Below are positions 5,605 to 56,899 of a stretch of DNA of 64,000 nucleotides, piece after piece. A program made the position numbers and the translations under genes. The stretch comes from Xiphophorus maculatus (lineage: Eukaryota > Chordata > Actinopteri > Cyprinodontiformes > Poeciliidae): the NCBI RefSeq assembly GCF_002775205.1, contig NC_036458.1:4370560-4434559 (forward strand), written 5' to 3'. The notes under the pieces were generated by a model. It saw nothing but the letters and a program-made list of their open reading frames with translations, did not search any database and was not told the origin of the DNA. Every line of letters begins with the position of its first letter. The first letter of the stretch is position 1.

Positions 5605-8600
5605 TCAGACTAAAGCCGCTGAAACGAGGCTCAGCAGGTCCCGCTTCAGAGTCTCCGTACAGTCGGCCTCTCTGGTCAGTCTGCGAAGGCAATCCGCAAA
5701 CGGACAGGGTCGGTTCTGGAAGCCCAGCAGTACGGCGAGGCAGGCCCGACTCAGAGCTGGGTAGCTGTAGCGCTGGGAGAACCAGTACAACTGGGGAAGC
5801 GACACCACCAAACCAGTTAACGAGGGAGATTGATCCTCTTTTGAGTTGGACCCAGAAAGGTTCGTGTTCTGGTCCAAACTTCCACTGAGTCCAGTGAACG
5901 ATGCGTCTCTTTCTTCCACTTTTTCAGGCAAACCGTTTAGTTTTTTGGTCGGGGCTGTCACCTCTAGCTCCGACGTTGGAGTAGAACTCTTCTGGTCCGG
6001 TTGGGATTTTACGATGTGGGTTTTGTTTGACTGATTGGATTGATCGGACCAAGATTTGAGAAATGACAGAAAAACTTCCTCCAACTCCCTCTGGAGGTCG
6101 AGAACCAGAAACCTGGATGCGCCGATCATCGCTTCGCCTAGCGGGGATTTCTGGAAACCTCCAGCTGAAAGCGACTCGGCCCGTTCCAGTCTGTCCAGAA
6201 CCAGCGAGTTTAAAGTTTGACATTCCCCTCCGGTTTCCGGGTCCGAACCGAAGCGACAGCCGTGTAGGTAATGTAGCGGCGGCAGCAGCATACCTGCGCT
6301 CACATCTTTGATACGAATGGCTTCGTCTGCGTTGCACTGGGCTTCTTCTCCGAACCCGCCTCTCAGCAGAGCCCGGAAGTATTCAGAACCAGCTCCGGCC
6401 ACGGCCTCCCGGTTGGCTGGGAACCGGGTCGCATCATCAAGTTCCAAAACCAGGTCAAAGTCCGAACTCGCGTACGGACAGGATGAGTCTTCGAGGCGAG
6501 GCTTCTTCAACGGCGGCGGGGAAGCTCCAGTAGGAGTCGGGTTTGGGTTCTTTTCTACCGGTTTGGGTTTAACGGAACCAGTCAGAGCAGAAAGGCATCC
6601 GAACAGGAGAGGGAAATACTGAGGCTGAGAAGTCGCATCTGAATCCGACTCGTCCTCTTCCTCATCATCATCAAATGCGCAATCCAAAGGTTTCAGCGCC
6701 GCTAGGAGACCGCCGCAATCCAGGAGGAGCTTCTTCAATAAAGATTTGTTGCTGTTGAACAAAAATAAAGTTACATTTCTCCTTAAAGGCGCAGTAACTT
6801 TTTTAAAAAAGTATATCTTTTAAAATATTTGTTGAAACTGTCACCATGTTGAGACAGTATGAGATAATATGTGAAAAGATCAAAAACAGTCAATCAGAGC
6901 CAGGAGGAGGGTCTTAGCGCTGTCAATCATGCTCATGTACTCGCTGCTAAATGTCCTAATGACAGAGAAACATCTTACCATCACAGGAAATTATTTGAAT
7001 AATTGTGATTATTGAAATAATCGTCAACTAAATTAGTAATTGATTAATCGTTAACTGGAGTACACAGACTCAAAATCATACCATTTGCTGAAACAACAAA
7101 GAATTAGAATAAATATTCAAAAATAAAATTAAAAATGTTCTCTATACGTTTTGTTGCATTTAGTAAATATAAATAATTTTTGTAATTTTAACTAACAAAA
7201 AACAAGAAAAGTTTAGTTAAACTTCAGAAATTGAGATAAAAATTTGCCTGTTTTTTTATTAAATGTATGAAAATATCTGGTTTTAACTGTAAAAGTTTCC
7301 AAATGTGGGTTTTATTGCACTTTATCATTAAACTCTGCAGTTTAAATATCACTTTCAAAGAAAAATAAGTGCAAAATCATCCAAAATATAAAGAAACTGT
7401 CAACAGACATTTTAACATGTGAAAGAAAAGGAAATTTACACAAGTCAGAGAACAAGGTTTAAATGAAAACAGTAAGTTCCCATATTTAAAACAACGAGGT
7501 ACTCGCCTGGTGATGAATGGCAGCGACAGAGCGCAGTTCTTCCTGTCTGACTCAGAACCGGACAGCATCACGTGGGTGAGAACGCCAGAACCGAACCCGG
7601 ACTCACACTGGACACGCAAATTATTCAGCAGCGCGTCACCTACAAAGGCAGCAGGCGGAATAAATAGGGCTCAGTTCATGGTGCTCCAATTATAATCTCC
7701 ATTTTCATAATTTTATATGAAGTATTTAATGTGGAGCTGAAGAAAACAATTATTTTAGTAATCTATTCTTCTGATGATTAATCGAGTAATTGAATTTAAA
7801 AAAAAGGGTACATTCTGATTTCTCATTTAACCACTTAAACCTTTCTATATTATATTAAAAATATGTTAAAAACAATGCAAATAATTCAATTACCTTTCCT
7901 AAATAAGAAACTGCCACAATATCCTTTAGTTTACACATGCTTATTTGTAGCAAAGAATGCATATGCAGCTAAACATAATACTAAATAAGAACTTAAATAA
8001 GCCCTTTCTGCTTCAGTTATCAGTAAGGCTAATCCGTTGACTATTTTTCCAATTAATAATTGGATAGCAAAAGGTGCTTAATAGCAGAATTTTACAGAAT
8101 TTGAGCCAGGTAAAACTTAAATTATGCCAATAGTGGACTTCTGGGTAGAAGATATTTACAGACCAGGAAGACATTTTTTTTTTTACTTTAGTGCAAAATG
8201 TTTATATTTTGTTTTTAATACTGCTCTGAGTCTGTTTTTCTTTTACTAAATGGTCTTTTTTATGCTCCAGTTAACGATTAATCAATTACAAAATTTAATT
8301 AGTTGACAATCCAGTTGCAATAAAATGTTTATTTTCTCATTTAAAAAAAAAAATGAATTATTTGTTATTTTCATATTTTAATCCATTTCTAATATTGTAT
8401 AAAAGGCTTAAGTAATTAAATAAAAAAACATGCAGAAGGTGCCAATTTTCTTATTGATTAATCATCAAAAATAATCAATTAAATGCCAGAATCATTGATT
8501 AATCGCCAGGATAACTGATTAATCAATACCTAAACCAATTACTTGCTGCAGCCCTCCTCCTCTTACCGAGCTGTTTCACTTTGGTTTTCACTCTGTCCGT

Positions 8601-11600
8601 CTGCCTTTGTCGTCCCTTTGACCCATCTTCATTTGCGCAGAGACGGTGGCGAATCAGCGCCACGGAACCGGTCCGAACCAGTGCCTGCAAGCAGCTCGGG
8701 TTGCAGCTCAAACGGCAGAGCATGCGGAAGCACCTGCTGCTGGGGTCCTGGTGCTGGGTGAGGTAGCAGAGCAAGCCGGACATGACGGCCGAGCTAACCA
8801 GCGCCGCACTGGGGTCACTGGCGTGCGAGAAGCGGGACAGCAGCAGCAGGATGGGCGACTCCGGCGTCCAGGGCTCGGGGTGGTAGGGGTGATGGTACCC
8901 GCCGGATCGGGGTACAGAAGGAGGGCTTTCTAAAGAGACTTTAGCTAAGGAAGCTGCTGAATGAGAGCGCCGCCGTCTCTGTGAAGAGGAGAACTTTGAT
9001 GGGGAAACGGAGGAGGAAGCAGCCAGGGTTTGAAGATCGGAGGAAGACCAGGAGGAGGGTGAGGAGGAGACAGGTGGCAAAGGTGGAGCTGATTTTTTGA
9101 AAGCAGAGCTGGATGAAGGCGGTGTTTTAGGCGAAGGGCTGCAGTCTGGATTTGGGGAAGAGGTTTGAAACGAGGAAGATGAGGGGTGAAGACTCCCCCA
9201 TTCAGCATCAGCACAGGAGGAATCCAGCAGCTCTCCTTCAGACGAGATCAACCCCTCAGAAAGCAACCAGGACCTGCAGAGACGACATTCAGGGTCAGCA
9301 TTACTATGACTTTAATGTCTAGATATCATAACTTTAATCTCGGAAAGTCACGACTTTATTCTCATAATTTTATTTGTTCTTAGTATGGCCCTAACACTCC
9401 ATCAGACTAAGAGGTTATTGTTTATTATATTTTATAAATATGTCCAAGTCTAATAATGCAAGAAAATTATAATTTTCTGTTTATTCAGTCACCATTAAAT
9501 ACATCTGACACACAAAATAATGTTAAAGTTTAATTACTTTTTGTTTAAATTCACCATATTATAAAAAATGTGGCCTTTTATGTTATGGAAAGACGGCAGA
9601 CTCTTTTGATACAAGAGAAAACTCAGGTTTTTAATAAAATGGCCGCTTATAAATCAACATTAGATGAACTCGTTAATCAATTACTGGTCTGTCTGATTAT
9701 GTTTTCCATACCTGAGGCTTAAGAAGCTGGATGAGCTTTGCTCCCTCCCGGCCTCCTCCCTCCTGAATCCCTCAGGCGGGGGGAAGTCAAACGACTCCAA
9801 ACAGGAAGTGGGCAGCAGCTCGTTGTGAGCCATGTTGGACGCTGCGTTCACGTCCGCCCTCTCCGCTGCGTGTTCCTCTCCTCTTGCGAGCTTCGCCAGC
9901 TGCGCGACCAGAACAGGAACCAGGCCCAGCTCCTGCAGCTGCTCCATCGCAGACTCATCAAAAACAAAGTCCACACAGGCCAGGATGGCGAACCGGGACA
10001 GCGGGTGATTCTGGTAGGACGACAGGAATGTCATCAGAACCTCCAAACCGCCATTTTCTTTCACCTTGGCACGGTTCACCGCCTCTTTGCAGCACAAGCA
10101 TAAAGCCTTGAGGAAGACTCCAGATCTGAGCGGGTCCTTCTTCACCTCCTCTGTGAACCTCTGAATGACCCCCAGCGACCCCACCAGCGGCCGCAAGCAG
10201 CCCTGAGAGCAAACGTTAGCTAGCGTTTTCAGCGCCAGCTCTTCGAAATGTTCGCCAGACTCCCCCGTCGCCATGACACCAAGCTGCGTCAAGACGCCGG
10301 AGCGGGAAACCTCCCTGGCGCATTCGACGCCGCAGCCCCTGGTCAGCTCATGGAGGGTCCGCAGGGCGGCACGCCGCAGGCCGGGGGGGTATTCTGGGGC
10401 AATAAGGGGGGCGAGGGCAGATAGTGTCCCCTGGGTGAGCAGCGAGAGGCGGTTGGAGGGCGAGTCTGAGAGGTAGAGCAGCGCGCGAGCGGCGGACTGG
10501 GCGCATTCCAGTTTGGGAGAGGAGTCAGAGGGCGGAGCGACGGTGGGAGACGACGGAGCGGACGACAACGACACGCAGAGGAGGAGGAGAGCAACGCCAC
10601 CTAGAGGTGAATAAAAAACAATGAGAAATGTTTCATTCAGGCGTCCTGGAGTAGATCAGTGATGGGCTGCAACTAATAATTATTTGAATTAAAAAAAATT
10701 CACTGCAAAAACACAAAATCTTACCAAGTAATTTTACTTTCTTTTCTAGTAGAAATATAATATTACATTTGAAATAAGACAGAACTAACTTACAAGTATC
10801 TTTTCAGCAAAATATAGCAGATTCTGTTTAGTAGATAATTTCTTAATATTGATGAAAAAGTCCTAGTTCCATTGGCATATAAATTTATTTATAACAAGAG
10901 AATTGTAACATGTTATAAGTGAAATAATCTGCCAATAGAACTAGAACTTTTTCATCAATATTAAAGAATTATTTACCTATATTTATAAGTGCCATTAGCA
11001 CATTCAGCAGCAACTACAAGTTTGATGGACAGCACTAAGACCCCCCTGGTTTGACTGGGAGCCGTTCATTTCTTCAAATGGAAATGGTAGCTCAGGGACA
11101 TCAGTCAACAGACTGTCCAGGCCCAAATGCACACCACACTTTTCAGATTGCTATGTTAAATTTTGACTGTCTTTGAACAAGGCTGCACAGTATTACTGCT
11201 GTGAAATGTTTATCCTATAGTTTGCAAATTGCTTTAAGAGCAATTTGAATTCATGACACTTAGAATATAATAATAAACATGTTTTGATTGAATTCCCATT
11301 CTTTTGCAATATTATCATTCCAAACAATAGAAGTTAGTATATTGTGCAGCTCTGATATAAATCAAAATTAGGCATTACTTTTTGTTGTTTTATCACATAA
11401 ACTCAAATAAAACACACTTTTACTGTGCACTGTATGGTTATATATGGAATTACTAACAGTTTTAAAGCTTCAGAAAAATAGAAACGCTTTACAATTACCA
11501 GCAGAGTGGATGAGTGCAGAGCTCTCTGGATCCATAGCCAAGTTCCCTAAAGCCCTGGCAGCCCGGTTCTGGACCGTCTCTAGAGCCACGTTTCTCTTCA

Positions 11601-13493
11601 TTATGTCCACTATTAAAATTAACAAAAAGATTTTTAGATTTATTAAAAATCAATGACTGGGGTGGAAATTGCAACACACACAAAAAAACCTAAACAACAT
11701 ATAATGTAGAACAGGGGTGTCCAAAGTGTGGCCTGGGGGCCATTTCTGGCCCTTGAAAGGAAGTTGATGATAAAAATTTAGGCAACAAAATAAAAAACAA
11801 CTGATGACCCAAAAAGTTTGGAAATTGTCTTTTTTTTTTAAACAAGAAACCCTTTTAATGTTTTGGATCTTTTATGATATATATAGTTCAGGGGCGCCGT
11901 ACAGGGGGGAAAGTGATGACAATTCTAAGGGCCCCTGACCAACGGGGCCCTCCACAATTTATTTATTTATTTTTTGTTCATAGAAATAAAATAAAAATTT
12001 GGGGCCATGTCAATTACAAAATTAATCATATTGTATTTTCGAAGAATGTTTTTAGCAGTAAAAATGTTATGTTCCCACTCCCAGACCAAAAAACACACAT
12101 CCATATTTGCCCTGAACCCCCTGGATCTGCATGAAATGGTTCGTTCCTGCTTGGAGCTTTAGGGTGACGGTGTTCAGCAGCAGACAGTGGAAGACAAGAA
12201 CGACTGTGGCTGTCACTCTGCTGCTAAGAAAAATTATAAAATCAGGTTTTCAAAAGAATAAAAAATAGAGAGAGAAAAAGGCAAGAGTGTCAATTTATAA
12301 CCCAGTTTTTCTCCTCCAAGTGGTGGGTAGACTGTGTGAGATTATCAATCATTAGCATAGTTAGCTTAGCTACAGACAGTTTGCCTCCATTTCGCTAGCA
12401 TTTAATGAATTAAGGAAAAAAATTATCAAGATATTCATATATTTAACGTGTCCCTCTACATTTTACCACTGAACAACAGATGAGTCAGTCAGCAGCAGCT
12501 CTAATCCCCGTCCCTCCTGACCCGCCCTCTCCTAAGTGAAATTAAAGCTGCAGTATGTCACTTTTATAAAAATACATATATTTTTTTCACATATTTGTTA
12601 AAACTGTCATTATGTTGTGACAGTATGATATGAGTTAGATAGAAACGATGCGACAGCTAGTTCTAAGCTTGTGGCTTCTTTGTAGTTGTCATAGCAACTC
12701 CATAACAACTGCCTGCCAAGATGGCTGCCAGCTACAAAGTTCCTGGAAATGTGATGTCAGATGAAAACCATGTATACAGACTTAATGAAAAATTTGTTTA
12801 TTGGTGAGCAGGTTAAACTACAGAAAATAAAAATCATCGTAAACTAACTTGTGCATTTTTAATTTAAGGAATTTTGTGGCCCACCAGTAGTTTAGATTTT
12901 CTAGTTTTGGCCCCCAAAGCAACAAGTTTGAACACCACAGAAGAAGAAATACTCTTCACTCACCTACAATGTTTATCCCTTCAAGCTTGCACACCTAGAG
13001 AGGAGAACATAAAATATTTTTAATAAGAGTCTAAAAATAAATAGGAATAAAGGTTTTCTGAGTGTGATCTCACCTCTAAGCGTGTCTCCAGCTCAGTGCA
13101 ACAGTTGGCCAGGATGCTGAGAGCCAGGTCCAGAACTTTCCTGGAGCACTCGGGATGTTTGAGCAGGTTCAGCAGGACTTTGAGTCCACCTTTCTCCCTG
13201 AATCTGGCGATGCCTGCCTTGTCGCCCTTGATATGCTGCGTCCTGATGGCAACTAGGGCTCGCCACTGATGCATCTTTGACCGCTTGTCTGTGTCTTTGG
13301 ATGGGACTGTCTGATGCTCAGCCCGTCCTGGTGAACCAGGTTCACAGAGGTGGGCCAAACACCAGGTCAATGAGGATTCTGGTGTCAATGTTTGGCCTTC
13401 TTTGGGGCTTATTCTCGGCAGCTTTCCGTCACTTTTCACAGGTGATGAAGCCATGACTGATAAAACTGGCAGGTCACGCGATAACTTATCCAA
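5605..13493 (-). CDS. armc5: Armadillo repeat-containing protein 5
   Basis: ARMC5 is an ARM-repeat plus BTB protein that serves as a CUL3 substrate adaptor; the human gene is a tumour suppressor in adrenal hyperplasia. There are seven coding exons, 5' to 3': 13074-13493, 12964-12994, 11499-11609, 9712-10600, 8567-9273, 7507-7639 and 5605-6751. All phases agree and give 1145 residues (human about 935). The N-terminal [11 protein letters not shown] and [14 protein letters not shown] and exon 3's [17 protein letters not shown] match human closely. ARM repeats run through exons 1-4. Exon 5 carries a long Ser/Pro-rich linker and then [19 protein letters not shown]. The BTB-like region (about 860-1000) lies in exon 7 and contains [10 protein letters not shown] and LHYLHGCRF. 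The extra length relative to human is mostly linker. Exon 6 uses a GC donor. A second Met (MASSPV) lies 13 residues after the first ATG. Confidence 0.95.
6775..6975. repeat. Dispersed repeat, 'TTGAAACTGTCACCATGTTG' family
   Basis: This stretch in the armc5 intron shares a block with 12540-12780 and 42395-42540: a 'gcagtaac/tgtcacttttataa' start, TTTGTTGAAACTGTCA, then GACAGTATGAGATAA and GTGAAAA. Three copies in one window mark it as a dispersed teleost repeat. I could not assign it to a class, because no A-box/B-box pair or terminal repeat was clear. Confidence 0.55.
7740..8555. repeat. ATTAATCG-rich palindromic MITE, near full length
   Basis: The element occupies the armc5 intron between exons 5 and 6. 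It starts with TTTTAGTAATCTATTCTTCT and GATTAATCGAG, and ends with inverted versions (GATTAATCATC, CTGATTAATC) and TGCTGCAGCCCT. Diagnostic internal words are GGCTTAA, TTTGCTATCC-like and CTCCAGTTAACGATTAATC. Other copies, whole or partial, lie at 6985-7345, 18515-19203, 31060-31465, 45437-46215, 46875-47400, 49998-50520, 53697-53912 and 60845-61325. Confidence 0.65.
10701..10995. repeat. CACTGCAAAAA foldback element, truncated
   Basis: The left end CACTGCAAAAACACAAAATC is intact at 10701. The arm continues with ACAGAACTAACTTACAAGTA and GAAAAAGTCCTAGTTCCATT, then turns back with CTGCCAATAGAACTAG. The right arm is lost after about 10995. It sits in the armc5 intron between exons 3 and 4. Confidence 0.65.
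11713..12938. mobile_element. Non-autonomous DNA transposon with GGGGTGTCCAAA ends and nested inserts
   Basis: The left end is AGGGGTGTCCAAAGTGTGGC followed by CTGGGGGCCA. The right end, read on the minus strand, is GGTGTTCAAACTTGTTGC followed by TTTGGGGGCCA. They form imperfect terminal inverted repeats of about 35 bp. Inside is a second dispersed repeat beginning 'aggggcgccgtacagggggg' (about 11890-12130), and the GAAACTGTCA family at about 12540-12780. The whole composite lies in the short armc5 intron 2. No transposase is visible. Confidence 0.55.
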
Positions 13494-14347
13494 ACTTTGC
13501 TATTGTTTGTTCACCCAGAACACCGTTAGGCATCACAGGACACCACCAGTGAAGCAATAAGGCACAATGTAGCATATTTCTTCACTTTTGACAATTGCAG
13601 AGTTGCTAATTAACTAGCAACGCTCTTGAAAAAGCCTAACGGGCTATGCACAAACTACAAATACCGATAAGACAATGGAAAGTTGTGTCACCTGACGCCG
13701 CACTCCCTGATGGGAAACTGAGTCCCCATCCACAGATCCGCTCCATTTAAAAAAGGCCTGGCGCTTGAGAAGGCCTAGAAACCGCTATTCGACGTAATTG
13801 GCGTGTATCTGCAATACGTTATTTTTTTTAATTCAAATTGTAAAGAAAATGTTCTATTTTCGCAATGTTATGTTACCAGAGATCGAATATATTTTGTGGG
13901 AAAAAAAGTGCAATCGCCTTCGCTAGCCGCTAACGCCATCTTTAGCCAAACAACAAAACGGGGGCGGTCTCCGGAGTGGAGCAGGGGCCAAAGAGGTGGG
14001 TCTGTGACCGAAATCTGGAATTTGTAGTTTCAGTTCTGATTCAATTCCACTATTCTAATGTGCGCCCTCTTTCTACAAAAACTACATTGCCCATGGCAAT
14101 GCTATGCAGCAGCTCCCGTGAAACAACCAAACGCATTTAGGGATTGTAGTTTGTTATGGGATTCTTTAAGGTTTAAAATACACATGAAGGACTACAAATC
14201 CCATATTACAAAAGATCGTCGTAAGAGCAATCGTTTATTGACGGAAAAAAAATTCATCGATGCATCCGTAAAGGTTGTTAAATTCCGCGATAGAGACATA
14301 GAGGTGAATGAAAACTTTAAAATTTCTATGGGAATTTAGATAAAAAT
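13494..14347. promoter_or_regulatory. Divergent promoter between armc5 and the Myb/SANT gene, with ZNF143-like motifs
   Basis: The two start codons point away from each other across 854 bp. The right half carries several copies of the ACTACAATTCCCA-type motif bound by ZNF143/Staf: 14014-14028 (minus, ACTACAAATTCCAGA), 14081-14100 (plus, ACTACATTGCCCATGGCA), 14139-14150 (minus, ACTACAATCCCT) and 14191-14204 (plus, ACTACAAATCCCAT). A weaker match lies at 13654-13665. There is no obvious TATA box. Clusters of this motif are typical of TATA-less bidirectional vertebrate promoters, so shared regulation of the pair is likely. Confidence 0.6.
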
Positions 14348-16410
14348 ATGGAAGTAATTGAGGCGATAGTGATACAAAATGCTAATGCGGACGGAAAGGA
14401 GTCGGCTGCGTCCAACAGCGTGGGCAGCGATAGGATAAAAGCAGGTTAGTAACAGAGAGTTTGGAGTTAGACTTGTTTGAACCAGTCATCGCATGATGCG
14501 AGGAGGGACTGATGAGTGCGCAACACACTCCCACTTCAAATATCATGTGAACATTATCATTAGACTGTATCTAAATAAGAGACTTTTTAATTCAACAAAT
14601 ACACTTTAGATATATTTTGTCACATATAGAACAGCTTGTTCCGGTCTATTTGTTTTATCATTTTGTTGGAAATCATTATTTATTGAGTATGACATCCATC
14701 CTTAGGAAAAATAAGCTTCTTTATGCTTCTTTGTTGACATTATAGGGTTGCGGGAACACAGCGGTGCAAAATGTGGGGGTTCTCTCTATGCAACGCATAT
14801 GGGCGCTGCGCTAGAGGGGGCGCCAAAGCTATAGCAGAAAGTTATTTTAAGTAAGCATTTTCTGTGTTTAACAGCTGTTTGCGCACGTAAATAATATGAT
14901 TAATAACAGGCCACTTATTTTCCTGCCTTGTGTCCTGTTACACATACACCTCTGGGAACATGTATCCAGTATACAACGGCCAATAGAATGGCCCAATAGG
15001 GCCACTGTTTATTAAAAAAGGGTACATTTACAATAAAATTTTTTTGAAATTTTAAGGTTGATCCAAGAAATTTTCTAGAAGAATCTTGGAAATTTCTGAG
15101 TTTGAAAGGTTGACACTTTGCTACAAAAACTTAAATATTCTGAGATTAATCTCAGAAATGTCCACGTTTTTCTAGAAAGTTTTATTAATATACTTTTAGT
15201 GATAATTGATATCTGCACTGGACAACATTGTAGATTTTAAAAAAGGAAAAATTCTGATTTTGAGAAGTTGAAAATTTGCTGGAAAAAACTCATCCATGTT
15301 TTTGGAAGAAAAAAAAACTAGGAAATTCCTGGTTCTGAAAAGTTGAAAATCAACAAGGAAAATCTCTAAAATTTTCTAGAAAAATCTTTTTCAAAAATTT
15401 TTCTAGATTCTTGCTGAAGTAATCTAAAAATGTGGAGGATTTTTTTTCTATGAAATGTTTGACTTTTCAAGCTAAGAAATTTCCAATTTTTTAAAACAAC
15501 AACTTTTTTTTAGCACATTTTTACTTTTCAAGCTCAGAAATTTTCACGTTTTTTCTACAAAATTTCTGAGATTTTTCTTGCAAATGTTTTACTTTTCAAA
15601 CTCAGAAATGTCCACGTTCTCTTATAGAAAATCTTGTTTTTTTTCTAGCAAATCTTCGTGTTTTTTTTGTTGCTTTGTTTATCTCAGACACTTCTGAGTT
15701 TTTTTGCAGAAATGTACTCCTCCTTGCTTTTTTTTTTTTTTAACGGTCTTGCAGTGCAGATATCAACTGTCACTAAAATTATGTTGCGTTTTTTTTGTTT
15801 TGCAGAATTCATCTGGACTCTGCAAGCCACATGGCACCTGGTCAACACCCGGCTGGAAATGGATCAGGCGTTTGACCAGCCAGTGTGCAAGAAGAAGAAG
15901 CTGTGGGAAGTGGTAGCAGAGAAGGTAAACGCCAAGCTGAGGGAGTCAGGGGTCACGGACATCACTGTTAAGGCCTACGAATGCGACCTGAAGTGGAGAA
16001 ACATGCTGGCCACCTACAGGAAGAACACAGACCGGGCTCGGCGATTGGGCGTGGCCAGCATCCACTGGGAGTTCTTCAAAGCCATGCATGAGGTTCTGGG
16101 TAAGAGCCGGGAGGAGATCGAAGCCCAGCGCCAGGCCAAGCTCAGCGGAACCAGAGTGGGAAAGGCCATCTCCAGCAAGAGGTTCACGCCGATCCTCCCC
16201 ACGCCGCCCGCAGCAGCCGCTGCCGCCACCAACCGGCCCCCGCAGGACGTCCTGCAGCTCTACATGGAGCTGCAGGAGAGAAAGCTGAACATGTGGGCTC
16301 AGCAGAAAGCGCTGGAGGAGAGGAAGATCGAGGCCATTAACAACCTGGCCCAGGCTATCTCCAGTCTGGCTCAGACCAACACCCCACAGACGTCAAAGGA
16401 CGGACATTAG
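14348..16410 (+). CDS. Trihelix Myb/SANT-like DNA-binding protein, Harbinger-derived type
   Basis: There are two coding exons, 14348-14444 and 15806-16410, joining in frame into 233 residues. After a 32-residue acidic leader, a trihelix domain shows the three regularly spaced tryptophans W36, W66 and W96 (EFIWTLQATW, KKKLWEVVAEKV, YECDLKWRNMLATYRKNT) and a following WEFFKAMHEVLG helix. Then come a basic linker, a Pro/Ala stretch (residues about 170-185) and a Gln/Glu-rich coiled coil (LQLYMELQERKLN to the end). This is the architecture of the Myb-like partner protein of PIF/Harbinger transposons and of NAIF1/MSANTD-type host genes. It binds DNA and, by family precedent, may carry a HARBI1-type nuclease to DNA or into the nucleus. 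The likely partner is the neighbouring convergent gene. Minus-strand armc5 shares its promoter. AATAAA lies at 17028-17033. I do not recognise a formal symbol. Confidence 0.8.
15195..15782. mobile_element. Foldback element with CAGTGCAGATATCAA ends next to the Myb-gene splice acceptor
   Basis: The left end ACTTTTAGTGATAATTGATA, continuing into TCTGCACTG (about 15193-15221), is matched in inverse by CAGTGCAGATATCAACTGTC, continuing into ACTAAAAT (about 15753-15780). The interior is the TTTCTAG/AGAAATTT low-complexity vocabulary seen elsewhere. The right end stops about 23 bp before the AG of the acceptor at 15804-15805, so the element probably supplies the branch-point region. Confidence 0.65.
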
Positions 16411-16539
16411 TTCATAACGCATCAGAGGAAAATTTCACTTCTGTTGTGTTACTGTAGCAAGCCGACAATATAAAACTCAAAGTTTTTGTTTATGGTCCAA
16501 AACCGACTATACATGCAATATCATTGTCTGCAAACTTTC

Positions 16540-16640
16540 AGTTAAGTTTATTTGTAAAGCAAATTTCAGCAACAAGGCAGTTCAAAGTGCTTCACATCAT
16601 AAAAAAACAAAAATACAAAGTCATAAAAGACTCAGTACGG
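16540..16640 (+). repeat. Probable LINE/SINE 3' tail
   Basis: The words AGTTTATTTGTAAAGC, CAACAAGGCAGTTCAAAG and TGCTTCACAT form a 3'-end block that is widespread in teleost retroposons. Only about 100 bp remain. The class is inferred from memory of the pattern, not from a search. Confidence 0.45.
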
Positions 16641-17059
16641 TCAACAAACTGAGAAAACTGGAAACAAACATTACATTTTGATCATCAAAATCATCAATAC
16701 ACACCAAATATATTGGTCAGTGTTTCAGTTTTTACGGTTCAAAAGCAACTCAGAGGTAAGTTTTTAGTCTAGATTAACGTCACTGGAGGATGCTCCTGCA
16801 ACTGCCTGATAACACAGCTGTAAGCCGAACATTTTCTTTTCTACGTGTCCCAAAGTTATTTATTTTTCTACTTAAATGAGTTACATTTGGTGTCTGAATA
16901 TGAAAGAACACAAAAGATCCACTAAAGAAAAGGTGAACATGATTTTTATACATAATCAGAATTATTCCTGTAACACCTGTCATGTTAAAAAAATTTAATG
17001 TTTGTAGAGCTGCTACTATCTACAGAAATAAATACTATTATAAACGTGTCTGTATTATT

Positions 17060-17290
17060 ATCAGAGGTGGGTAGACGCCCAAAAATGTACGAAAGTAAGA
17101 GTAGCACTACTTTAACTTATTACTCAAGTAAAAAAGAAATATATTATATACATCTATAGATATATATAATATATACTTATATATAGTTGTCCAAGAAATT
17201 ACTCAAATAAGAATAAGAAAGTGTTTGGTAAAACGACGACTCAAATACATAATGTAGTATTTAAAAATTACATAATCTGATCAACCAGAA
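17060..17290. repeat. ACTCAAGTA-type palindromic repeat, fragment
   Basis: Repeats of ACTCAAGTAAAA and ATTACTCAAATAAG with GTAAGAGTAGCACTACTT match the larger copies at 19728-20205 and 28995-29545. The inverse words (ACTTGAGTAATTTTT) occur at the other ends of those copies, so the family folds back on itself. Confidence 0.55.
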
Positions 17291-17641
17291 TATAAAGCTA
17301 TGTGGAAATATTGGTATTTCAGCAAAATAAAAATAATTAATATAAGATAATGAATCCATGCAAAATAAATATTTTTCCAAATCGTGTTCTCCCAGTAAAA
17401 AACTAATAAAACTTTAACAAAAGCTGTGTTGGGAATTTTTTTTTTTTTGCCGTAATATTCTGTTGTCCAACTCACAGAAGAGTTGAACAACTGAAATAAA
17501 AACCATTTTTTGAGAATATCTTCTATCATTTGTAATTTCTTTTTAAGAAAAGAAGCGAGAAAAAACGGATGTGTTATGGAAAAATCGGACATTTTATTTT
17601 GAAGCCGTGTTGCAGCCTTATTTGTTACAGTTTATATTCTG

Positions 17642-18603
17642 TCACGTGATTCCAGAGTTAATGTTCCTCAACAACAGATCTGCAGCAGCATCCCGTCTCT
17701 GAACTCCCTCCTCATCTTCCTCCCCGTCCTTCTCCTCTTCCTCTGCGGTTCGGATATTCTCCATTTCAGAATCCAGTCGAAGTTCTTGTCCCATCCGCAG
17801 GAACACGTTGTGCAACACGCAGGCGGTCAAAACGACGGTTCTGGCCCGGTCGTAGTTTCCGATGTCCAGATAGCTGAGCCGTTTAAATCTGGCCTTCAGA
17901 CTGCCGACGGCCCAATCCAGGATCCGACAATGTTCCGCCAAGGTTCGGTTGAAGACTTCCTGTTTTGGTCCGCAGCTTCCGGTGTAAGGGGTGAGAATCC
18001 GCGCCGATAGAGGGTATCCGGTTCTGGCTACAAGGCAGGAACCGGGTGGCATCAGCTGAGGGTTCTGTTTGAGTCGGTCTGTCAGTATCCGGCCGCGGTC
18101 CGAATCGGAGCCGCTGCTGACTCTGCAGTGCAGGAACTGACCTCGACGGCTGCAGACCAGCTCCAGGTGTAACCAGCGGTCCGGATGGGCCGCCATCTTG
18201 AACCTCTTCTCCGCAGGTCCCAGACTCTCCAGGTCATGTTTTCCTGCAGGCAGGCGGATGGGAATCTGTGTGTGTCCCAAAACTCCCAGGACCCGAGGAA
18301 GACTACGGCCTTCATCCTCCTGACTATCCACCACCAGACCGGAAAATGGGAAAAGTGCCTTTGCAGCCTCTTCTCCTGGAAAACACATGGTTATTAAAAC
18401 ATTGATGCTCCAACATCATCCAAAAATTTACAATAAAATGTATTTTTATCTTAGTTTTATTACACATATATAGTTATGTATATAAGCTATGCTAATATAG
18501 AAGTTGTGTCAGATATATTTTTATCCAGTTGATTAATCGATTACTAAATTCGCTGATGTCTATTTCAATAATAAATTCATCACAATTAATTGTTTCAAAA
18601 TTG

Positions 18604-18635
<32 letters not shown>

Positions 18636-20604
18636 TGTATGTATGTATGTATGTATGTATATATTTCTGTATATATAAAATTTGGCACATTCTTTTGCAG
18701 ATTTTTCATTTAAGCCCAATTTAAGTACAATATTAGAAATACTTAAAAATAGAAATAAGTACTACTATTCTTTTTTTCAAATAAGAAAATAAATATTTTA
18801 TTGCCTAAGATGCAATAATGCATTATTCCTTTTGTAGGAAGGGATGCATCTGGAGCTAAAAAAAAAAAGTACTACCAACATCAACATGAAAAACTCAGTC
18901 CTCAGCTTGATCTGTTGATGAATTGTTCAATAACTGGACAGCAAAAGGTGCATAAAAGGACATTTTACTTAACAGAATTTGAATCGGGTGAAGCTAAAAC
19001 TGCAACATGAGGAGTTCTGGGTGCAACATATTTAAAAATGGAAGCATTTTTTGTTGTTTGCTTTGTAAAATACATGATTTTTGTACAATTTTGGTTTAGG
19101 TTCTGTTGAAAGTCTGGCAAATGGCCTTTTTGTTGAGTCTGTATTCTCCAGTTAACGATTAATTGACGACTCTTTCAATATTCAGTTAATTGTGTCAGCC
19201 CTAGGAACGTACCAAGCGGCCATCTGATTTGCTCGTCCGTTAGCGTGCTGATCCGCTCACAGAAGGAGAAGAAGATCCTGTGGATGTTTCCTTTCTCCAG
19301 CTGGAAGCGGCGGGACACGGAGCGGTAGCTGACCCGTTCAGACAGCAGGGACAGAGACAGGAGGACAGTGTGGGACAGAGACAAGCGAGCGCGTCCAGCC
19401 AGTCGAGACCCAGATGTGGAGCCTTGAAGCAGCTTTGAAATGTACTGGAAACAAAATAAATGTAACTGTGTTAGATATTCAGCGGACTTTATAAAGCGTC
19501 AGATGAAATTTATCCACTATATTCTAGATAAAATGTGTATTTCATCCAATTTGCTGCAAATCTGAGGTAAATTCAAGGTTAAAAATCATATATATAGGTT
19601 TAAATATAAAGACATTAGTTAGTTTTGTTTTATTTCAAGTGCACTAAGATATTTGCACCAAAAACTTGACTAAGTTACTTGGTATAATTTAGTGTTTTTG
19701 CAGCGTATTTATGTAAAATCAGAGGACGGTAGAATAGCCAAATACTGTACACAAGTAAGAATAGCACTACTTCAACATATTTTTTCTCAAGTAAAAGTAA
19801 AAAGTAGCCATCTAAGAAATTACTCAAGAAAGGGTAAAAAATATTTCAGATTAACAATCATTTAATACTTAAAAATTACATATTCAGACGACTAAAATAT
19901 AAAATTAAGTTGCAATTTTGGTATTTTAAGGACGAAAATGACAATAATTCATACAATTTTTTTTTAAAAAAACTAAATCTGGCAAAGGGACATTTTTCCA
20001 AATCAGTTTCTGTCAATAAAAACTTATGAAACTTTAACAAAAATTGCAGGTGTTTGTCTGTCTGGTGAATTTTTGGTTAAAAAGTTTGTTCGTCGTTAAG
20101 TGAAATGATAAAATCCAGAAATTTTACTCAAATAAGAGAAGCGATGCTTCATAGTAAAGTTACTCAAGTAAAAGTAAAAATACCCCTAAAAGTAAATTTT
20201 TTCACACAAAAAAAAAGTTAAGGAAAATATAACTAGGACTACCTGCCTCCGTGTAAAATATAAAACAGAGAACTGAATTTTATAATCACCGTGACTGCTT
20301 CACTGTCCGCTGTTTCTTGCTGGTTCTCGGATGCTGTCGCTCCCTTCTCGGTCGGACCAGTCAACCCGGCCGCTGTGGGTGAACCCCGGGGTCCAGGGCT
20401 CGGGTTGCCCCGCAGTAACCGCAGGTAAACGGCGGGAGAAGGCGGCTGCGCTTCGAGTCTCCCCACCAGCTCGGACTCCAGGATCTCCTCCACCGCCTGG
20501 TCCAGCCGGAGCTCCAGCTCCCCGGCTGACAGGGGCTCCCATTCCCGCTCCATCATGTCTAGAACCGCTCGGCCCGCAGATAAAACATGCTGCCTAAAAT
20601 CCAT
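17642..20604 (-). CDS. HARBI1-like protein, domesticated Harbinger nuclease lacking the catalytic triad
   Basis: There are three coding exons, 20290-20604, 19213-19444 and 17642-18375, joining in frame into 426 residues. Exon 1 (1-105) is a lineage-specific acidic/Pro-rich leader. Exon 2 carries a helix-turn-helix region (VSYRSVSRRFQLEKGNIHRI) that aligns with HARBI1. Exon 3 is the DDE nuclease fold: VLGVLGHTQIPI, LHLELVCSRRGQF, LVARTGYPLSARILTPY, LDWAVGSLKARFKRL and ACVLHNVFL align with the HARBI1 order. The active-site acids appear lost: Gly216 where DxxH is expected, Arg300 in the GDSGY position, and Asp336 for the Glu of IERAFG. The C-terminus is very acidic. AATAAA (minus) lies at 17593-17598. 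The open, spliced frame with a dead triad argues for an exapted host gene, perhaps a binding partner of the adjacent Myb/SANT protein. No formal symbol is assigned. Confidence 0.8.
18515..19203. repeat. ATTAATCG-type MITE with a (TATG)n microsatellite
   Basis: This copy lies in intron 2 of the HARBI1-like gene, between its second and third coding exons. It begins GTTGATTAATCGATTACTAA and ends CCAGTTAACGATTAATTGAC, then TGTCAGCCCTAGG. Its left arm contains an uninterrupted GTAT/ATGT tetranucleotide array at about 18604-18662, roughly 14 units, likely polymorphic. The right end stops about 10 bp before the donor side of exon 2. Confidence 0.65.
19560..19705. repeat. CACTGCAAAAA-family right-half fragment
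   Basis: The words TTAGTTTTGTTTTATTTCAA, GTGCACTAAGATATTTGCAC and TAGTGTTTTTGCAG are the right arm of the foldback family. The left arm is missing. Confidence 0.55.
19728..20205. repeat. ACTCAAGTA-type palindromic element
   Basis: It opens with ACACAAGTAAGAATAGCACT and TTTTTCTCAAGTAAAAGTAA, and closes with AGTTACTCAAGTAAAAGTAA and TACCCCTAAAAGTA. It occupies most of intron 1 of the HARBI1-like gene. No coding frame is visible. The same family is at 28995-29545. Confidence 0.55.
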
Positions 20605-22201
20605 CTGAGCTCATGGAGAAACAGAACCCGGTTCGGTTATCAGAACAGCGCAAAAACAACGAAGAGATCCATTTTATCGAGCGGAAGTATGCCAACTACT
20701 AAGCTAATGTTTGATGCCTTCACGGACTGTCGGAAATCTTTAAAGGAGCGCTGAAAAACAAAAACGACAAACGAAACCACAACAGAAAGTAGTAGGATGA
20801 CGTTTTGGGGGCTTTTTTCGACAGTGTGCAGCCTGAATAAGATGCCGACGTCACACCTGATACGGAGTAATATGGCTGCAAAACATCCGTGGCTTGCCAT
20901 GACTTTTAGCGACTTATCACGTGAACAAGCTTTTTCACGTGTGATTTGAATTTTATTTATTAAATGGTAGCACCGCAATTGCAAAGTTGTATATTTTCTA
21001 CATTAACGCAATATAAACAAATATTTGCACACATTTGTAATGGAAATGCAGTTATTGTTACCTTACCGGCAGAAGGTTCTTGGTTCAAATCCCAGTTTGG
21101 TGTCTTTCTGCATAAAGTTTGCATGCTTGATTACCCAGATTATTTTTTAGCTCACAATTGACCCATTACTTATTGTAAATCAAAATACCACACTGCACAG
21201 AGATGAAAAACAATTGTTTTAATGTTAAATCAGTTACAAGTGCAACTCTGGTAATGTCCACCTGTTTTAACAGCCTGAATTTGCAAACATGCTAACAAAA
21301 TGTGCTAAAACGGTTTCATTCCGCTCCTCAAGGGTCAGATTTCCTTTCTTTGAGATAAAAAAAAAAGGACCATCGATTTAATCTGAGGTTTGGATCTGCA
21401 AATATATTAGCTAAATTTAGGGGAAAGTGCAGCAATTAGTAAACTACAGTGGAGTGATATGATGGCCATTCAAGATGTTTTATGTATCCAAAATGTTTAA
21501 AATCTCCAAAGGTTTGACAGTAAAACAACAGTTCATCAATCAATGAGTTCAGTTTCAGTAGTTTCTGATGAAAACATTAACTACTGATTGGTAAAGAGTA
21601 ATAAAAACCAGTGGATCTCTTTTTATTTGAGTGTTGTTCAGAAGTTTTGAAATACAAACGGTAACTTAGAAATTCATACACTCCATTTTTATGGTTGCAA
21701 AACATCCAGGCAAAAGACAAAAAAAAAAACAAAAAAAACCCTACTTTCAGTTTAATAAAGAAACACACAAACACAAAACACTAAAAAAAAGCCACACTTA
21801 ATCAATTAAAACTCTTTAGCCAGCAAAACAAAGATTGTGAGCAAGGCAGCTTTCACCTTCCTCTAAATAGTCTAGAATTCATTAAATAAGAGGTACGATT
21901 CTTGGCTTCAGCCGTCACTAATCCCAAGATGGCCGACAGTGTTGTGACAGGTCCGTCAGGTTTCTCTGCAGGGTATCTTGTGAAACTTTTTTCTAACATG
22001 CCCTCGTTAATTTCAACACAAATAAACCACTTTAATCTCCCCTTAAATTTAAGGGGAATCTCTAATTATTTATGCCTCGTTTGAGAATTGTTGTCAGGAA
22101 AATGTCATTCGGCGAGGCTTCGCATCCCAGAATTGGACCCCACCCGATGCCCTCCCTCCGCCCCGATCTGTGGACCGGTTGTTGTTTTATGGCTCTGTCC
22201 T
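20605..22201. other. Promoter of the HARBI1-like gene and elob 3' region
   Basis: From 20605 to about 20950 is the 5' flank of the HARBI1-like gene; no TATA box is clear. The rest is AT-rich and includes the probable elob 3' UTR, with a minus-strand AATAAA at 21622-21627 about 580 bp below the stop codon. The open frames in this interval are short and have no recognisable product. Confidence 0.5.
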
Positions 22202-25200
22202 TCACTGCACCGCCTGCTCGTTGGCTGTGCTTCCAGAGTCCTGAGGCTTCATGACGTCAGGAAGCTCCGGCGGAGTGGAGAACGACTCGATGCTCAGCGG
22301 CTCAAACGAATCATCTGGGAAAGGAAACGGAGACGGAAAGTGAGGGAAAAAAATAAATATGTAAAAAACATCATCTGCAGACGAACCTGAAAGGCTTAAA
22401 TATAAAATCAGATTTCTTTCATAACAGATCAGATTTTAATCTATTTTTCTCACTTTCTTTATTCTAAAAAAATAAATGCCAGAAAACGTCAGAAAGTGAC
22501 AAAATCTTATTAGGTATTTTTCTAGTGCAGTTGAAAGAAGACAAAACAAACTTACAAGTAACTTTTCAGCTTATTTCTACAGCTGGCATCTAAGTTAGTT
22601 TTTAACTACTAACTTTTTAGTAGTTAAAATCTTACATATAAAATATTAGATTTTAACATAGGTAAAATCTAACATTTTAATATGTTAGAAGTTAAATAAT
22701 CTGCCAGTGGAACCAATACTTTCTAATCTGTATTCAATAATTCTTCACTTAAAACAACCTCCTTAATCTTGTTGAAAAGTTACCTGCAAGTCAGTTTTGT
22801 CTTCCAGTGTGCTAAACCAAAGCACCTAGGTTCAGGCACCTAGGTTTTGGTGCCTGAACCAAAACCTAGACCATAAATACTTAGTAAAACTAAGTAAGTG
22901 TTTTTGCAGTGTAACTCTTCTTTGAGTTGTATGACAGAGTTTTATAGTCAGGCTACAATAATTTTTCTTTAATTGTGAGAAAATAACTACAATATTAGCA
23001 GAACAAAAACATTTTACCAGAAAAACATGTCAAAATTAAGAGAAAAAGTCGTTTTAATGAGAAAAAAAGTCGTAAAGATCAATCCATGTGGTTTTCTTTG
23101 AAATGTACTTGTTTGCTCAATCGTTTCAAATTTCTGCTACTGGTAATAACTTGATGCTTATGTGTTAAAAGAAAAACTATTTATCAGAAAACTTGTCCCA
23201 AAGTATATCATCACAGCATACTTCGTTTTAATATTTTGTGTCGGAGTTCTAATAAAATTTGACTTTATTCTCCTAATTAAAATAAAATCGTAGCCTGGGC
23301 CTAATATTTTGCCATAAAGTTGACCTGAATTCAAAGTTCAAATAAATAGAAACTGTAAAACACACTTATCAAACAAGATGGTTGCCAATCTAAACTAAGG
23401 AAGCCCCTCATCCTTAGTATTGGTGAAAAAAAAATCTAGATTTTCCAAAAATTTAAACCCTCAAAAACCAAATATTCCAGCTGTAGCTCAGAGTGAAAAA
23501 TGAGCGAAAGTTTCCAATCAGAGAGAGCGACTCACCGCTGAGACGAAGCGCTAACCCCACTGTGGCGGGCGCCTGAGGTCGGGCCGTTTGATTTGTGAAG
23601 CCACAATTTCCAAGAGTCTGACTGTCACCAAGCACAACATCATCCTGAAGGACACAAGAGCAAAAACAATCCAGTTAATAAAAACTGCATAAAATCCTTT
23701 CAACCATTTTAAATGAAACACTATCCACCAGTTAAAGGAAGCTGATTGTTTTTCTTGAGGCTGAATACTTCTGGTAAGAACATCCCACACAGTTCCCTGT
23801 TTGCATTTTTACAGCTTTTGAACGCTTCCCGTTTCTTGTCTTTTTCGCCCCCTCCAGTTTATGACTCTTTCAGACATGTTCACTGACATCTGCTCTTGTA
23901 ATTGGTGTTGTAGATTTGGTCATTTCAGCACATTTTCCCCAAACACTTTAGTAATAACGTTGTAAAGCTACCCACCTGACATAATTGGAGGAAATTTAGA
24001 AGAATTCACTGACTGTCAACAACAATGCAAAATATATATGTTTGATTTGATTTTTGATTGCTTTTCTCTTCATCTTCACCAACAAAAAACTAAATATTTT
24101 CGCTTTTCAATCGTTCTTATTCATACAAAAGAATGAAACGTTCAGTATGACATTTAATCTGAAAGTTATGTTTATATCTTACTAACTCTGAACCCGACGT
24201 GTATATTTATGCAAGTAAAAGTCACCAGTTTCAGGGTAAAGTCTACACAGTTAAATCTAAAATGATTCACAGATTTATATGTAAAATTATTCTCATTCTA
24301 TCGAGAAGTTTTGCTTCTCATATAAAATGAGAAAGACATTTCAAAAGATAATGATAAAAAGGGGAATCAATTACAGGGGAAAAATGCTAGATTTTAATTC
24401 ATAACAAAAATAAACATTGGCATGTGCAGATTTTTTAAATGCCATTGGACAGCAGCCCATCCTGTTTTATAACTGCTGCTAAAACTAATAAACATACCTT
24501 AATATTCACATCAACAGATGTAATATGGGTGTTTTTAGGGATAATATTTCACCTTGAAAAGCATTTGATCTTCAGGTGGCCTCTTTAAAATGCCTTCAAC
24601 AATGCGCTTCAGTTCATAAACTGTGGTCGACTCTTTGGCATCTGTGAAGATGGTTGTCTTGTTGCGTCGGATCATTAAAAACACATCCTAAAAACGGAGC
24701 AAAGTAAAGCAGAAGTTAGACAAAAGAGATTTCAACTAAAACTAAAAATAATTTTGAACACTTCACAACATGAAACACTAGTAAGATTGGTAATTTATTC
24801 AGTAAAATTAATCGGAAATAATTATCTACATTTCTTACTGTGACACAAAGCTTTATATCAATATGTGAAACTTTACATCAAAGTGTCAAAACACAAAAAT
24901 AGAGTTTTGAACTCCCAATAGTGACTGAGCGGCAGATAAAACCTAAACCCGATAACTTTATATTTATTACAAATTCTTTAAAAGTCAACCTTTACTCTAC
25001 AAAATATGTTTAGAAATATTTTTCAGTGCTCTTTTGTGAATGTAGAACAGTTTAGGTTACCAGCCAAGTCACAGCTGGAACAAATTGTTCTACACAGATT
25101 GAAGATCCAGTGGTATATGTTCTATTAAAAATATGGATTGAAATCTTCTTTTTTGTGTGGGTAATTTTTTAAACAGGTTTCAAACTGTGTTTCAGAGAAT

Positions 25201-28070: not shown

Positions 28071-31000
28071 CTATGTAACCACAAATGCGCTGTCTTGGAT
28101 CTTGGCGTTAACATACTAAGTAAACAACAAAGAATCAAAAAGGAAATCTGATATTATCAAACATATAATGAAATATTACAAATGTAGTTAAGCTGAAATG
28201 TTCATATCTTACATCCAGTCCTCTGGGGGATTTAATTGCCTCGCGTCCGTTGCAGCACAACAAAAAAAAAGGTCTCTCCTTAGTTATTGAATGCTGTTTG
28301 AAGCACAGACCGAAAACTTTGGCAGGTAAGTAAACATCCCAATCAGCCGCATGCTCCCCTGTTAGATCACTGACCATCCTGTTAGAGAAGCAGAAATGTT
28401 AGATCTTAATTGGGAATTGATTAACTTGATTTTATTAACAGTAATCTATGTAAGTTTCAAAGTATGTTGTACCTGTCAATCAGCTGCGGTGTGATTAAAT
28501 CCACACAGCCTGTCTGCTGATGATAAACCACGAGAGCAGTTGTGTCCTTTAGGTGATCTTTCAGCCCAAGATTAATCTAGTAAAGTTAAAAAAAAGACAC
28601 AATGTGAGAAAACAGTTTGATAAGCCAATATTATATCAGATTGTAAGGAAAACTAGTATCACAATTAAATTAAGCCATTCAGTGGCGACCCCAAGAGGTG
28701 GCAGAGGGGTGCCATGGTCCCTCGTGAAAAACATTGGCCATCCCACTCCAAACAATCATATTCAGGTAAGAGTACAGTACAGTTATCTTGTTCAATCAAG
28801 ACATAGATGTACAACCCAATAAGCAAATACATCAATTTATAAAATTAAAAATAGAATTATTTTTTTTAGCTGTGCCCCTCTAAAAGTTTTACTGACTTGG
28901 TCTATGAAAATTTTGGGGGGAACCACTGACATCTAAAAATTTATATAAATTGGCACTGAAACAATAATTCATGCAAAAGGAGCTTTATCATGAGTAGAGT
29001 ATATGTACTGTAAGCAGAGTTGAATAGAAACTAGTTATTTTTACTCAATTACACATACTTGAGTAATTTTTTAAAAGAAAAAATATATACTTTTAGGAGT
29101 ACTTTTTACTACACCTGAGTAATTTTATGATGAAATATTTCTACTCTTACTTGAGGAAAATGTCTGGATTTTCTACCCACTGAATGAAAAACAAACATGT
29201 TATAACCAAAAAGCCACCACACAGACACACCTGCAGCCTCTGTTAAAGTTTCATAAGTTTTTTTTAATTGAAAAACTGATTTGGAAAAAAAACCAACATT
29301 TTTTGTTATTTTTTGTTACTTATATAAATTATTGTTATTTTGGTCCTTAAAATACCAACATTTAACTTCATATTGTGGTCCGTCTGATTATGTAATTTTT
29401 AAATGTTAAATGATTGATCAGTTACTCAGTACTTGAGTAGACTATACCAAATACTTTTTACCCTGACTTGAGTAATTTTTTAAGATGGCTACTTTTTACT
29501 TTTACTTGATTCTAATTTTTGGGTGCACTGTCCACATCTGAGTGTAAAATATATTGGTATTGTTTTCAGTAAGGCTACATTTCTGTATTAAAATCAGTTC
29601 AAAATTAATGAACTACTCTATAAGTAAAGACTATTTTTATTTCACTGAGCTGCACTTTTACAAACCGTTCTTAATTGACTTTTATCAGCTTTCTACTTCA
29701 TGCCGCAGTCACACCAGTTTAATAACACACACACTCACTCTGTGGACTACGTCATGAGGCAGCCTGGAGAGGATTCTCAGCGGATACCCGAAGTGTGCGA
29801 TGATGTCGGCGATGTTCTTCGCCACGGCAGACGGGAGGCAGGACTGCATGGGGACGGCCTCCACCCACCTGGAGTAGAAGTCTGTCAGCGTTAAAATGTA
29901 CCTGTGTCCATTCAGCGTCTGCGGCAACGGCCCCCTGACGTCCAGTCCCAGCCACTGCCACGGCCCTTTCACCTGGAACCATAACATCCAGTAGTATCGG
30001 AAATAACAACTGTTCGTTTGAATTTCTGGCCAACTTTTTAGTAATTATGAAACTGAGAATACCTCTATAACATTGTCAGAGTCTTCATACTCTCTCTGTA
30101 GAAATTATTTCAATAGAATAATTACAATTATACACTATTTGTACAACAGAAAATCTTATTTTTAAATATTTGCTGCAACTTACACTGAAATCATCATCTG
30201 GAGCCCATTGGATATTCTGTTGATTTGTGAAAAAGAAAAAAATTGGACATGAAAAAATATATTAGATGATCATACAGGACTTAAACCCACCATCATATCA
30301 CAACATTATCAAAGGTGACCTATAATGCTTTCTTGAGCAGGTTAGTGTAAACTCATCGTTTACAGATGCATCTTTGAAAAGCAGAAATTAAACCTTTTAC
30401 GCATCTAACAAGAATGCAGCATATGGTGTCTGCATGATAAATCACTAACAAAGCACTTGTCTTTTCCAGTAGCCATTGTAGCGAATACTGCAGTAAAACC
30501 AGCTACCAAATGTATTGGAGCTCAGCTTGGGTTGCTTGGTGACGGGAGGAATTCCAGTAGGGTTGCTAAGTAACGGAAACCCTACTGTCACATTCAATGC
30601 CTGTTGAATGTGACTCGATATTCGGAAGGTTTTTGAAAGGATTAATTTTCGAGACACTAAAAATATTAACTTTTTGCCAAAAAAACCTAAAATGCTGGGT
30701 GCTTTATTAAAAAGTTTAGGCTGCTTTTAGAAGCAGTCGAGCCTCAAATGGAAATATAAAACGTGCAAAATATGAATTTTGCATCATAGTTCCCCTTTAA
30801 AGAAGGTAAAAATACACCTGTTCGATAACCAGGATGGAAAACTGCTAACCCACTTACCTGTGGCACACAGTAATCTCCATGAAAGAAATGTGGAAATGAG
30901 TCGATCTTCCTCAGCCGCTCATCAACTATGATTCTCCATTTTTCAGTGTTTTTATGATCTTTATCTCTGATCATAAATACAGAAAAGTTTAACACATTAA

Positions 31001-45073: not shown

Positions 45074-56899
<11,826 letters not shown>

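Follow-up and report, generated by a model that had tools for sequence, protein, structure and literature searches.

A tail-to-tail trihelix/Myb and HARBI1-like gene pair in Xiphophorus maculatus, a possible remnant of one Harbinger insertion with an altered nuclease active site

Two adjacent genes of the kinds carried by Harbinger elements, a trihelix/Myb gene and a HARBI1-like gene, were examined in Xiphophorus maculatus (assembly GCF_002775205.1, 704 Mb in 101 contigs, designated here by C numbers). They lie in a stretch of 64 kb, C16:4370560-4434559, hereafter called the window, and coordinates without a contig or locus label refer to positions within it. The pair consists of two spliced reading frames standing tail to tail, the trihelix gene on the plus strand and the HARBI1-like gene on the minus strand, with exon structures predicted from the sequence as follows:

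14348..14444, plus strand: trihelix gene exon 1, with the start codon at 14348
15806..16410, plus strand: trihelix gene exon 2, encoding the trihelix domain at residues 36-129 and, towards the C-terminus, a segment judged helical by eye
16411..17641, no strand: interval of 1231 bp that separates the two stop codons and contains AATAAA motifs on both strands
17642..18375, minus strand: HARBI1-like gene exon 3, encoding the DDE_Tnp_4 core with Gly216, Arg300 and Asp336
19213..19444, minus strand: HARBI1-like gene exon 2, aligned with the part of Harbinger transposases that precedes the DDE core and in which the transposase on C11 described below has HTH_Tnp_4
20290..20604, minus strand: HARBI1-like gene exon 1, with the start codon at 20604, encoding the N-terminal region

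All three introns of the pair are bounded by GT..AG, and the GC content is 0.49-0.64 in the exons (exon 3 of the HARBI1-like gene measured without its last 16 bases) and 0.27-0.32 in the introns. The trihelix gene encodes 233 amino acids, while the HARBI1-like coding sequence comprises 1281 nt including the stop codon and encodes 426. An earlier note on this DNA had described an intact convergent pair of 233 and 426 residues, a description that the exons, the introns and the Pfam domains all bear out.

The trihelix protein matches PF13837 (Myb_DNA-bind_4) with an E-value of 6.1e-12 and 46.2 bits against a cut-off of 27, and PF10545 (MADF) with 1.5e-4 and 22.4 bits, barely above the cut-off of 22; a domain of the Myb/SANT/trihelix or MADF type that characterizes the Myb-like protein of Harbinger elements is accordingly present. 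Among sequences in the PDB it weakly resembles structures of the plant trihelix factor GT-1 (2jmw/2ebi, E 0.0022 and 0.0033), whose helix tryptophans align with Trp36, Trp66 and Trp96. In Harbinger Myb proteins, these tryptophans are important for binding to DNA (PMC7282668). With the three helix tryptophans kept and a basic patch, KKKK at residues 61-64, in a protein of net charge +7, the trihelix protein probably binds DNA.

The HARBI1-like protein, which carries a net charge of -3, matches PF13359 (DDE_Tnp_4) with an E-value of 2.9e-13 and 50.2 bits against a cut-off of 24.8. As a reference for its active site we used a 375-residue open frame on C11 of the same assembly (in L038), an intact-looking Harbinger transposase with the motifs IDGTH, GDAAYP and VERAFG. 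In the pairwise alignment, with 23% identity overall, Gly216 is aligned with the aspartate of IDGTH, Arg300 with that of GDAAYP and Asp336 with the glutamate of VERAFG; these are the triad positions given by the earlier note, and the intact D, D, E triad of an active Harbinger transposase is absent. An SDSD motif near residues 272-275 was considered as the source of the second catalytic aspartate and rejected, the same alignment setting the GDAAYP aspartate opposite Arg300. The HARBI1-like protein retains its N-terminal part and the DDE_Tnp_4 signature but, having lost two of three metal-binding carboxylates, probably cannot cut DNA. The proposal that cleavage is unlikely is sustained here by Gly216 and Arg300, whereas Asp336 alone is no sign of a dead site, because a HARBI1-type locus on C24 likewise has D at this position (EIVDRTF). 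A likeness to methyltransferases, seen in a single PDB sequence match with an E-value of 0.52, was taken as chance.

The HARBI1-like gene is not alone in its altered triad, since HARBI1-type loci on C10 and C19 read A, G, Q and T, E, E, respectively, as judged by eye from an alignment of open-frame pieces. On C10 (L064, G000:C10:3309501-3317500, 1913-4463) the locus is in pieces and all three catalytic positions are changed; the C19 locus lies at 1984-4216 of L065 (G000:C19:17763501-17771500). No Myb_DNA-bind_4-type frame was found near either of them within the 8-kb stretches read.

Searched against the whole assembly, where protein searches give lower bounds for the counts of repeats and large families, the HARBI1-like protein returned its own exons and weak matches on C10 (27% over 77 residues, E 0.015) and C19 (26% and 34%, E 0.03 and 0.7), and the trihelix protein its own exons and one weak match on C16 near 18.49 Mb (42% over 36 residues, E 0.04). 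Neither gene shows the multiple related copies of a mobile Harbinger element. Outside the assembly, no relatives were found in viral contigs, searched with both proteins of the pair and the C11 transposase, or in other genome contigs, searched with the C11 transposase only. In the flanks (12900-14347 against 20605-22100) no inverted repeat rose above chance, the best matches being reached or passed by 26/30, 30/30, 30/30 and 30/30 first-order randomised controls at 15, 20, 25 and 30 nt. The same test applied to C11 as a positive control was reached by 0/20, 1/20 and 0/20 controls at 20, 25 and 30 nt, with the C11 stretches picked after the repeats there had already been seen. Even when up to 3 mismatches were allowed, the terminal-repeat motif of C11 was not found in the window. 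One inverted pair spanning most of the locus (14620-14641 and 20923-20944, 22 nt, 77%), found among the 25 longest of the 94 inverted repeats between 13400 and 21600, was rejected as element ends, its left arm lying inside the trihelix intron. Many near-identical copies with terminal repeats, which according to the earlier note would speak against domestication, were therefore not seen: there is the locus itself with weak matches, and no repeats above the controls. Adjacent genes, intact frames and missing element ends, the combination by which PIF co-domestication is recognised, are all found at this locus.

The organisation of the pair recurs in a Harbinger-like element on C11 (L038, G000:C11:18750501-18759500), where a Myb_DNA-bind_4 frame at 3805-4266 on the plus strand (75.1 bits in Pfam) stands tail to tail with the transposase frame at 6459-5335 on the minus strand. 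Both are enclosed by candidate terminal repeats, 36-nt arms at 2249-2284 and 8572-8607 that are 81% complementary. Tail-to-tail orientation of the pair fits an inherited element layout, because the C11 element holds its Myb and transposase frames in the same arrangement within candidate repeats. Among the 23 Myb_DNA-bind_4 and 49 DDE_Tnp_4 matches listed, both lower bounds, only C11 and the locus of the pair have the two kinds close together, and from these numbers and 704 Mb any one DDE_Tnp_4 match would have a Myb_DNA-bind_4 match within 5 kb by chance with a probability of about 3e-4. The C11 layout and the rarity of such adjacency are the best evidence for descent of the pair from one element. 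As side observations, the C11 element (2249-8607 of L038) has both frames open and a canonical D, D, E triad, a partial Myb frame on C3 (L031) is similar to the C11 Myb, and 11 of the 23 listed Myb_DNA-bind_4 matches cluster at G000:C17:12597762-12862242, possibly as a local family of multi-domain trihelix genes.

Regarding the ancestry of the HARBI1-like protein, a maximum-likelihood tree of 10 rows, three of them under half filled, split two rows labelled ISL2EU-type by motif from eight Harbinger-type rows including the HARBI1-like protein, with a support of 100/100. A Harbinger-type rather than ISL2EU-type assignment is supported by this tree. In a phmmer search of 1421 frames from six stretches, the best match outside its own locus was C10 (E 7e-7), followed by C19 (6e-5) and the C11 transposase (1e-3).

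How long both frames could have stayed open without selection was approached by a neutral simulation on the two coding sequences (2000 runs; indels were assumed at 0.1 per substitution, 70% of them frameshifting). With substitutions alone at 0.1 per site, 4.8% of the runs left the trihelix frame open and 0.65% the HARBI1-like frame; with the assumed indels, the joint probability of both frames being open was 2e-5 at 0.05 and 2.9e-10 at 0.1 substitutions per site. Whatever codons for D, D, E are taken, the triad codons GGA, AGA and GAT are at least six of nine nucleotides away from them, and by a binomial calculation 35% differing sites, or about 0.46 substitutions per site, would be needed to give such a change a probability of 5%. 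Given a D/D/E ancestor, the triad change postdates the last self-driven move, and frames open over that span would be unexpected without selection. Under this model, the intact frames beside the altered triad argue against neutral decay. An open frame alone says little, because among the 49 DDE_Tnp_4 matches listed 30, the HARBI1-like gene's own included, have no internal stops, and 19 have them.

The surroundings of the pair include two CpG-rich stretches:

13500..14750, no strand: CpG-rich stretch at the trihelix 5' end, common with the divergent probable armc5 start; possible two-way promoter
20250..21000, no strand: CpG-rich stretch at the HARBI1-like 5' end, with CpG observed/expected ratios of 0.90 and 1.03 in the windows starting at 20250 and 20500; possible promoter

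In 500-bp windows starting at 13500-14250 the CpG observed/expected ratio reaches 0.90-1.10, compared with 0.64 for the whole 64-kb window. The probable start codon of armc5 (13454, minus strand) and that of the trihelix gene (14348, plus strand) face away from each other at a distance of about 0.9 kb, which suggests a two-way promoter common to both genes. A position of the locus between armc5 and elob, as put forward earlier, is confirmed on the armc5 side by Pfam ARM_ARMC5, with the probable start ATG at 13454, while on the other side the piece at 22205-22435 (minus strand), on which Pfam is silent, is presumably elob, being recognised from the C-terminal sequence alone. Elsewhere in the window lie a THAP domain frame at 32067-32306 on the minus strand (PF05485, E 6.3e-12), a domain type also found in transposons; a short frame at 29712-30044 on the minus strand with weak similarity to an integrase core (rve, E 0.0098, below the cut-off), which may be a Gypsy-type integrase remnant or a gene piece; and an open frame of 817 residues at 51292-53742 on the minus strand with no Pfam match at E 0.01.

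We read the pair, at a probability of roughly 0.5, as the remains of one Harbinger insertion of which the host kept both genes, a DNA-binding protein and a cleavage-dead partner. The earlier note had likewise suggested one insertion as the source of both genes, which agrees with the Harbinger-type HARBI1-like protein and the layout of the C11 element; for the trihelix gene itself we infer a Harbinger origin only from adjacency, orientation and domain type. A number of observations weigh against this interpretation. The tree does not settle the place of the HARBI1-like protein among the eight Harbinger-type rows, where it has the longest end branch (1.83), and the gene may descend from an older domesticated lineage instead of a fresh insertion, because the unpaired, triad-altered C10 locus outranks the C11 transposase in phmmer. 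A profile built from the other 22 Myb_DNA-bind_4 matches gives the trihelix domain only 18.6 bits (E 1.4e-4), compared with 112.3 bits for the C11 Myb, itself part of the profile; the identity of the trihelix protein is 18% to the C11 Myb, the one Harbinger Myb compared, and 33% to a GT-1 piece. The pattern K-K/R-X-K/R occurs once in each protein (KKKK; KRFK at residue 239 of the HARBI1-like protein), hence a one-sided nuclear signal is not apparent. CpG richness extends beyond the 5' ends, with exon 3 windows of the HARBI1-like gene reaching 1.00 (start at 17500) and 0.90, and the promoter evidence at its 5' end is weak because exon 3 is equally CpG-rich. The neutral model, finally, presumes a D/D/E ancestor and an indel rate, uses a triad picked because it was conspicuous, and is no stand-in for dN/dS.

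Several of these points would suit two separate events: the trihelix gene would be a transcription-factor gene of a different origin, the HARBI1-like gene would have been domesticated on its own, perhaps within an older lineage such as that on C10, and the two would be chance neighbours that form no common complex. In its subtype the trihelix protein differs from the C11 Harbinger Myb and, by eye, from the other Myb_DNA-bind_4 matches except the C16 trihelix locus near 18.49 Mb (L026), its nearest relative in the assembly, near which no DDE match is listed; moreover, the triad-altered loci on C10 and C19 stand without a Myb_DNA-bind_4-type frame in 8 kb, and C10 is the best outside match of the HARBI1-like protein. 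Such a history appears rather unlikely to us, since chance adjacency has the low probability per DDE match given above, still 1.6e-3 if there were five times more Myb-like genes, and since the layout is that of the C11 Harbinger-like element. That the locus is a lone old Harbinger copy without host function that has not yet decayed is improbable. Stop-free DDE_Tnp_4 frames do exist elsewhere in the assembly, for instance on C11, and the pair is known from the sequence of one genome alone; against this, six or more changes among the nine nucleotides of the triad while 1983 nt of coding sequence stayed intact would be very unlikely under neutrality, the flanks lack terminal repeats, and decay is visible among the relatives that carry stops. 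We give very little credence to a HARBI1-like protein that is still catalytic or nicks DNA through other acidic residues, so that the pair would act as an enzyme on DNA: Asp336 is acidic and shared with the C24 locus, yet the first two carboxylates are replaced by Gly216 and Arg300, and in rice PING one triad mutation drastically lowers transposition (PMC4671723).

Compared with known systems, the descent from one Harbinger insertion that we favour has its closest parallels in insects, where linked PIF co-domestications comprise DPLG7-DPM7, APLG1-APM1, APLG2-APM2 and LPLG2-LPM2 (PMC9710019). In these, as here, a transposase-derived gene adjoins a Myb/MADF-derived gene, in many species, which was ascribed to one insertion; co-domestication was annotated when a MADF protein adjoins a domesticated transposase, adjacency serving as the criterion because MADF proteins evolve fast, and intact frames and absent element ends, both also seen here, are among the criteria used (PMC9710019). 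Synteny and selection were assessed across species for the insect pairs, whereas the present pair is known from one fish genome; in the main text of that paper 'DDE' occurs 0 times and 'catalytic' once, hence a dead triad is not discussed there as such (PMC9710019). This feature is shared with Arabidopsis ALP1/ALP2 and HDP1/HDP2, which join a nuclease that lost its triad (DGA in ALP1; lost in HDP1) to a Myb-derived partner, although ALP2 is not encoded beside the nuclease gene and has lost the DNA-binding tryptophans, in contrast to the linked fish pair with its trihelix tryptophans kept (PMC7282668, PMC4671723). In fish, ADF-1L of the miiuy croaker is, as the trihelix protein may be, a Harbinger-derived Myb/MADF-type protein with a regulatory role; it regulates 7SL, and the part of that paper covered describes no paired dead transposase (PMC11893794).

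Vertebrate HARBI1 and NAIF1 are the same two kinds of protein as those of the pair. The HARBI1-like gene is distinct from a locus on C24 (L066), another contig of the same assembly, which we take from its motifs to be the probable HARBI1 locus, and this part of the earlier suggestion of independence from HARBI1/NAIF1 fits a separate event. NAIF1 belongs to Pfam Myb_DNA-bind_5, whereas the trihelix protein matches Myb_DNA-bind_4. A literature search of titles and abstract openings turned up no linked fish pair, returning the linked insect pairs, the triad-dead Arabidopsis pairs and vertebrate HARBI1/NAIF1. Myb genes of Harbinger origin in vertebrates (MSANTD2 family) have reportedly been described, and that work could already cover the trihelix gene. 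Tamed Harbinger pairs being already known in insects and plants, the fish pair is likely a further case.

We tentatively propose, with some doubt, a linked vertebrate co-domestication independent of HARBI1/NAIF1, in which the nuclease, no longer able to cleave, would now serve as an adaptor guided by the trihelix partner it had from the start, making the pair the animal equivalent of ALP1/ALP2 and HDP1/HDP2, with the founding linkage and the DNA-binding tryptophans kept. The two genes would share their origin and be held under constraint. By analogy with other Harbinger pairs, the trihelix protein would use its C-terminal part to bind the HARBI1-like protein at the N-terminal part of the latter, carry this partner into the nucleus and set it on specific DNA, where the partner may act as an adaptor recruiting chromatin or transcription factors. 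Where mapped, the Harbinger contact joins the N-terminus of the nuclease to the C-terminus of the Myb protein, and the interaction is kept in each of the three domesticated pairs studied (HARBI1/NAIF1, HDP1/HDP2 and ALP1/ALP2), though ALP1 and HDP1 lost the triad (PMC7282668). HARBI1 and NAIF1 interact, and the nuclear location of HARBI1 requires NAIF1 (as cited in PMC9710019). A functional precedent is nxhl, which is called a Harbi1 homologue and has a role in angiogenesis (PMC8558974).

Even for HARBI1, the nuclear role of a cleavage-dead transposase in vertebrates is poorly understood. If the two genes prove to be conserved together in fish, the Harbinger genes tamed as a pair in insects and plants would be joined by a vertebrate case, and the published model in which the nuclease can be retained because its Myb partner takes it to DNA would gain support.

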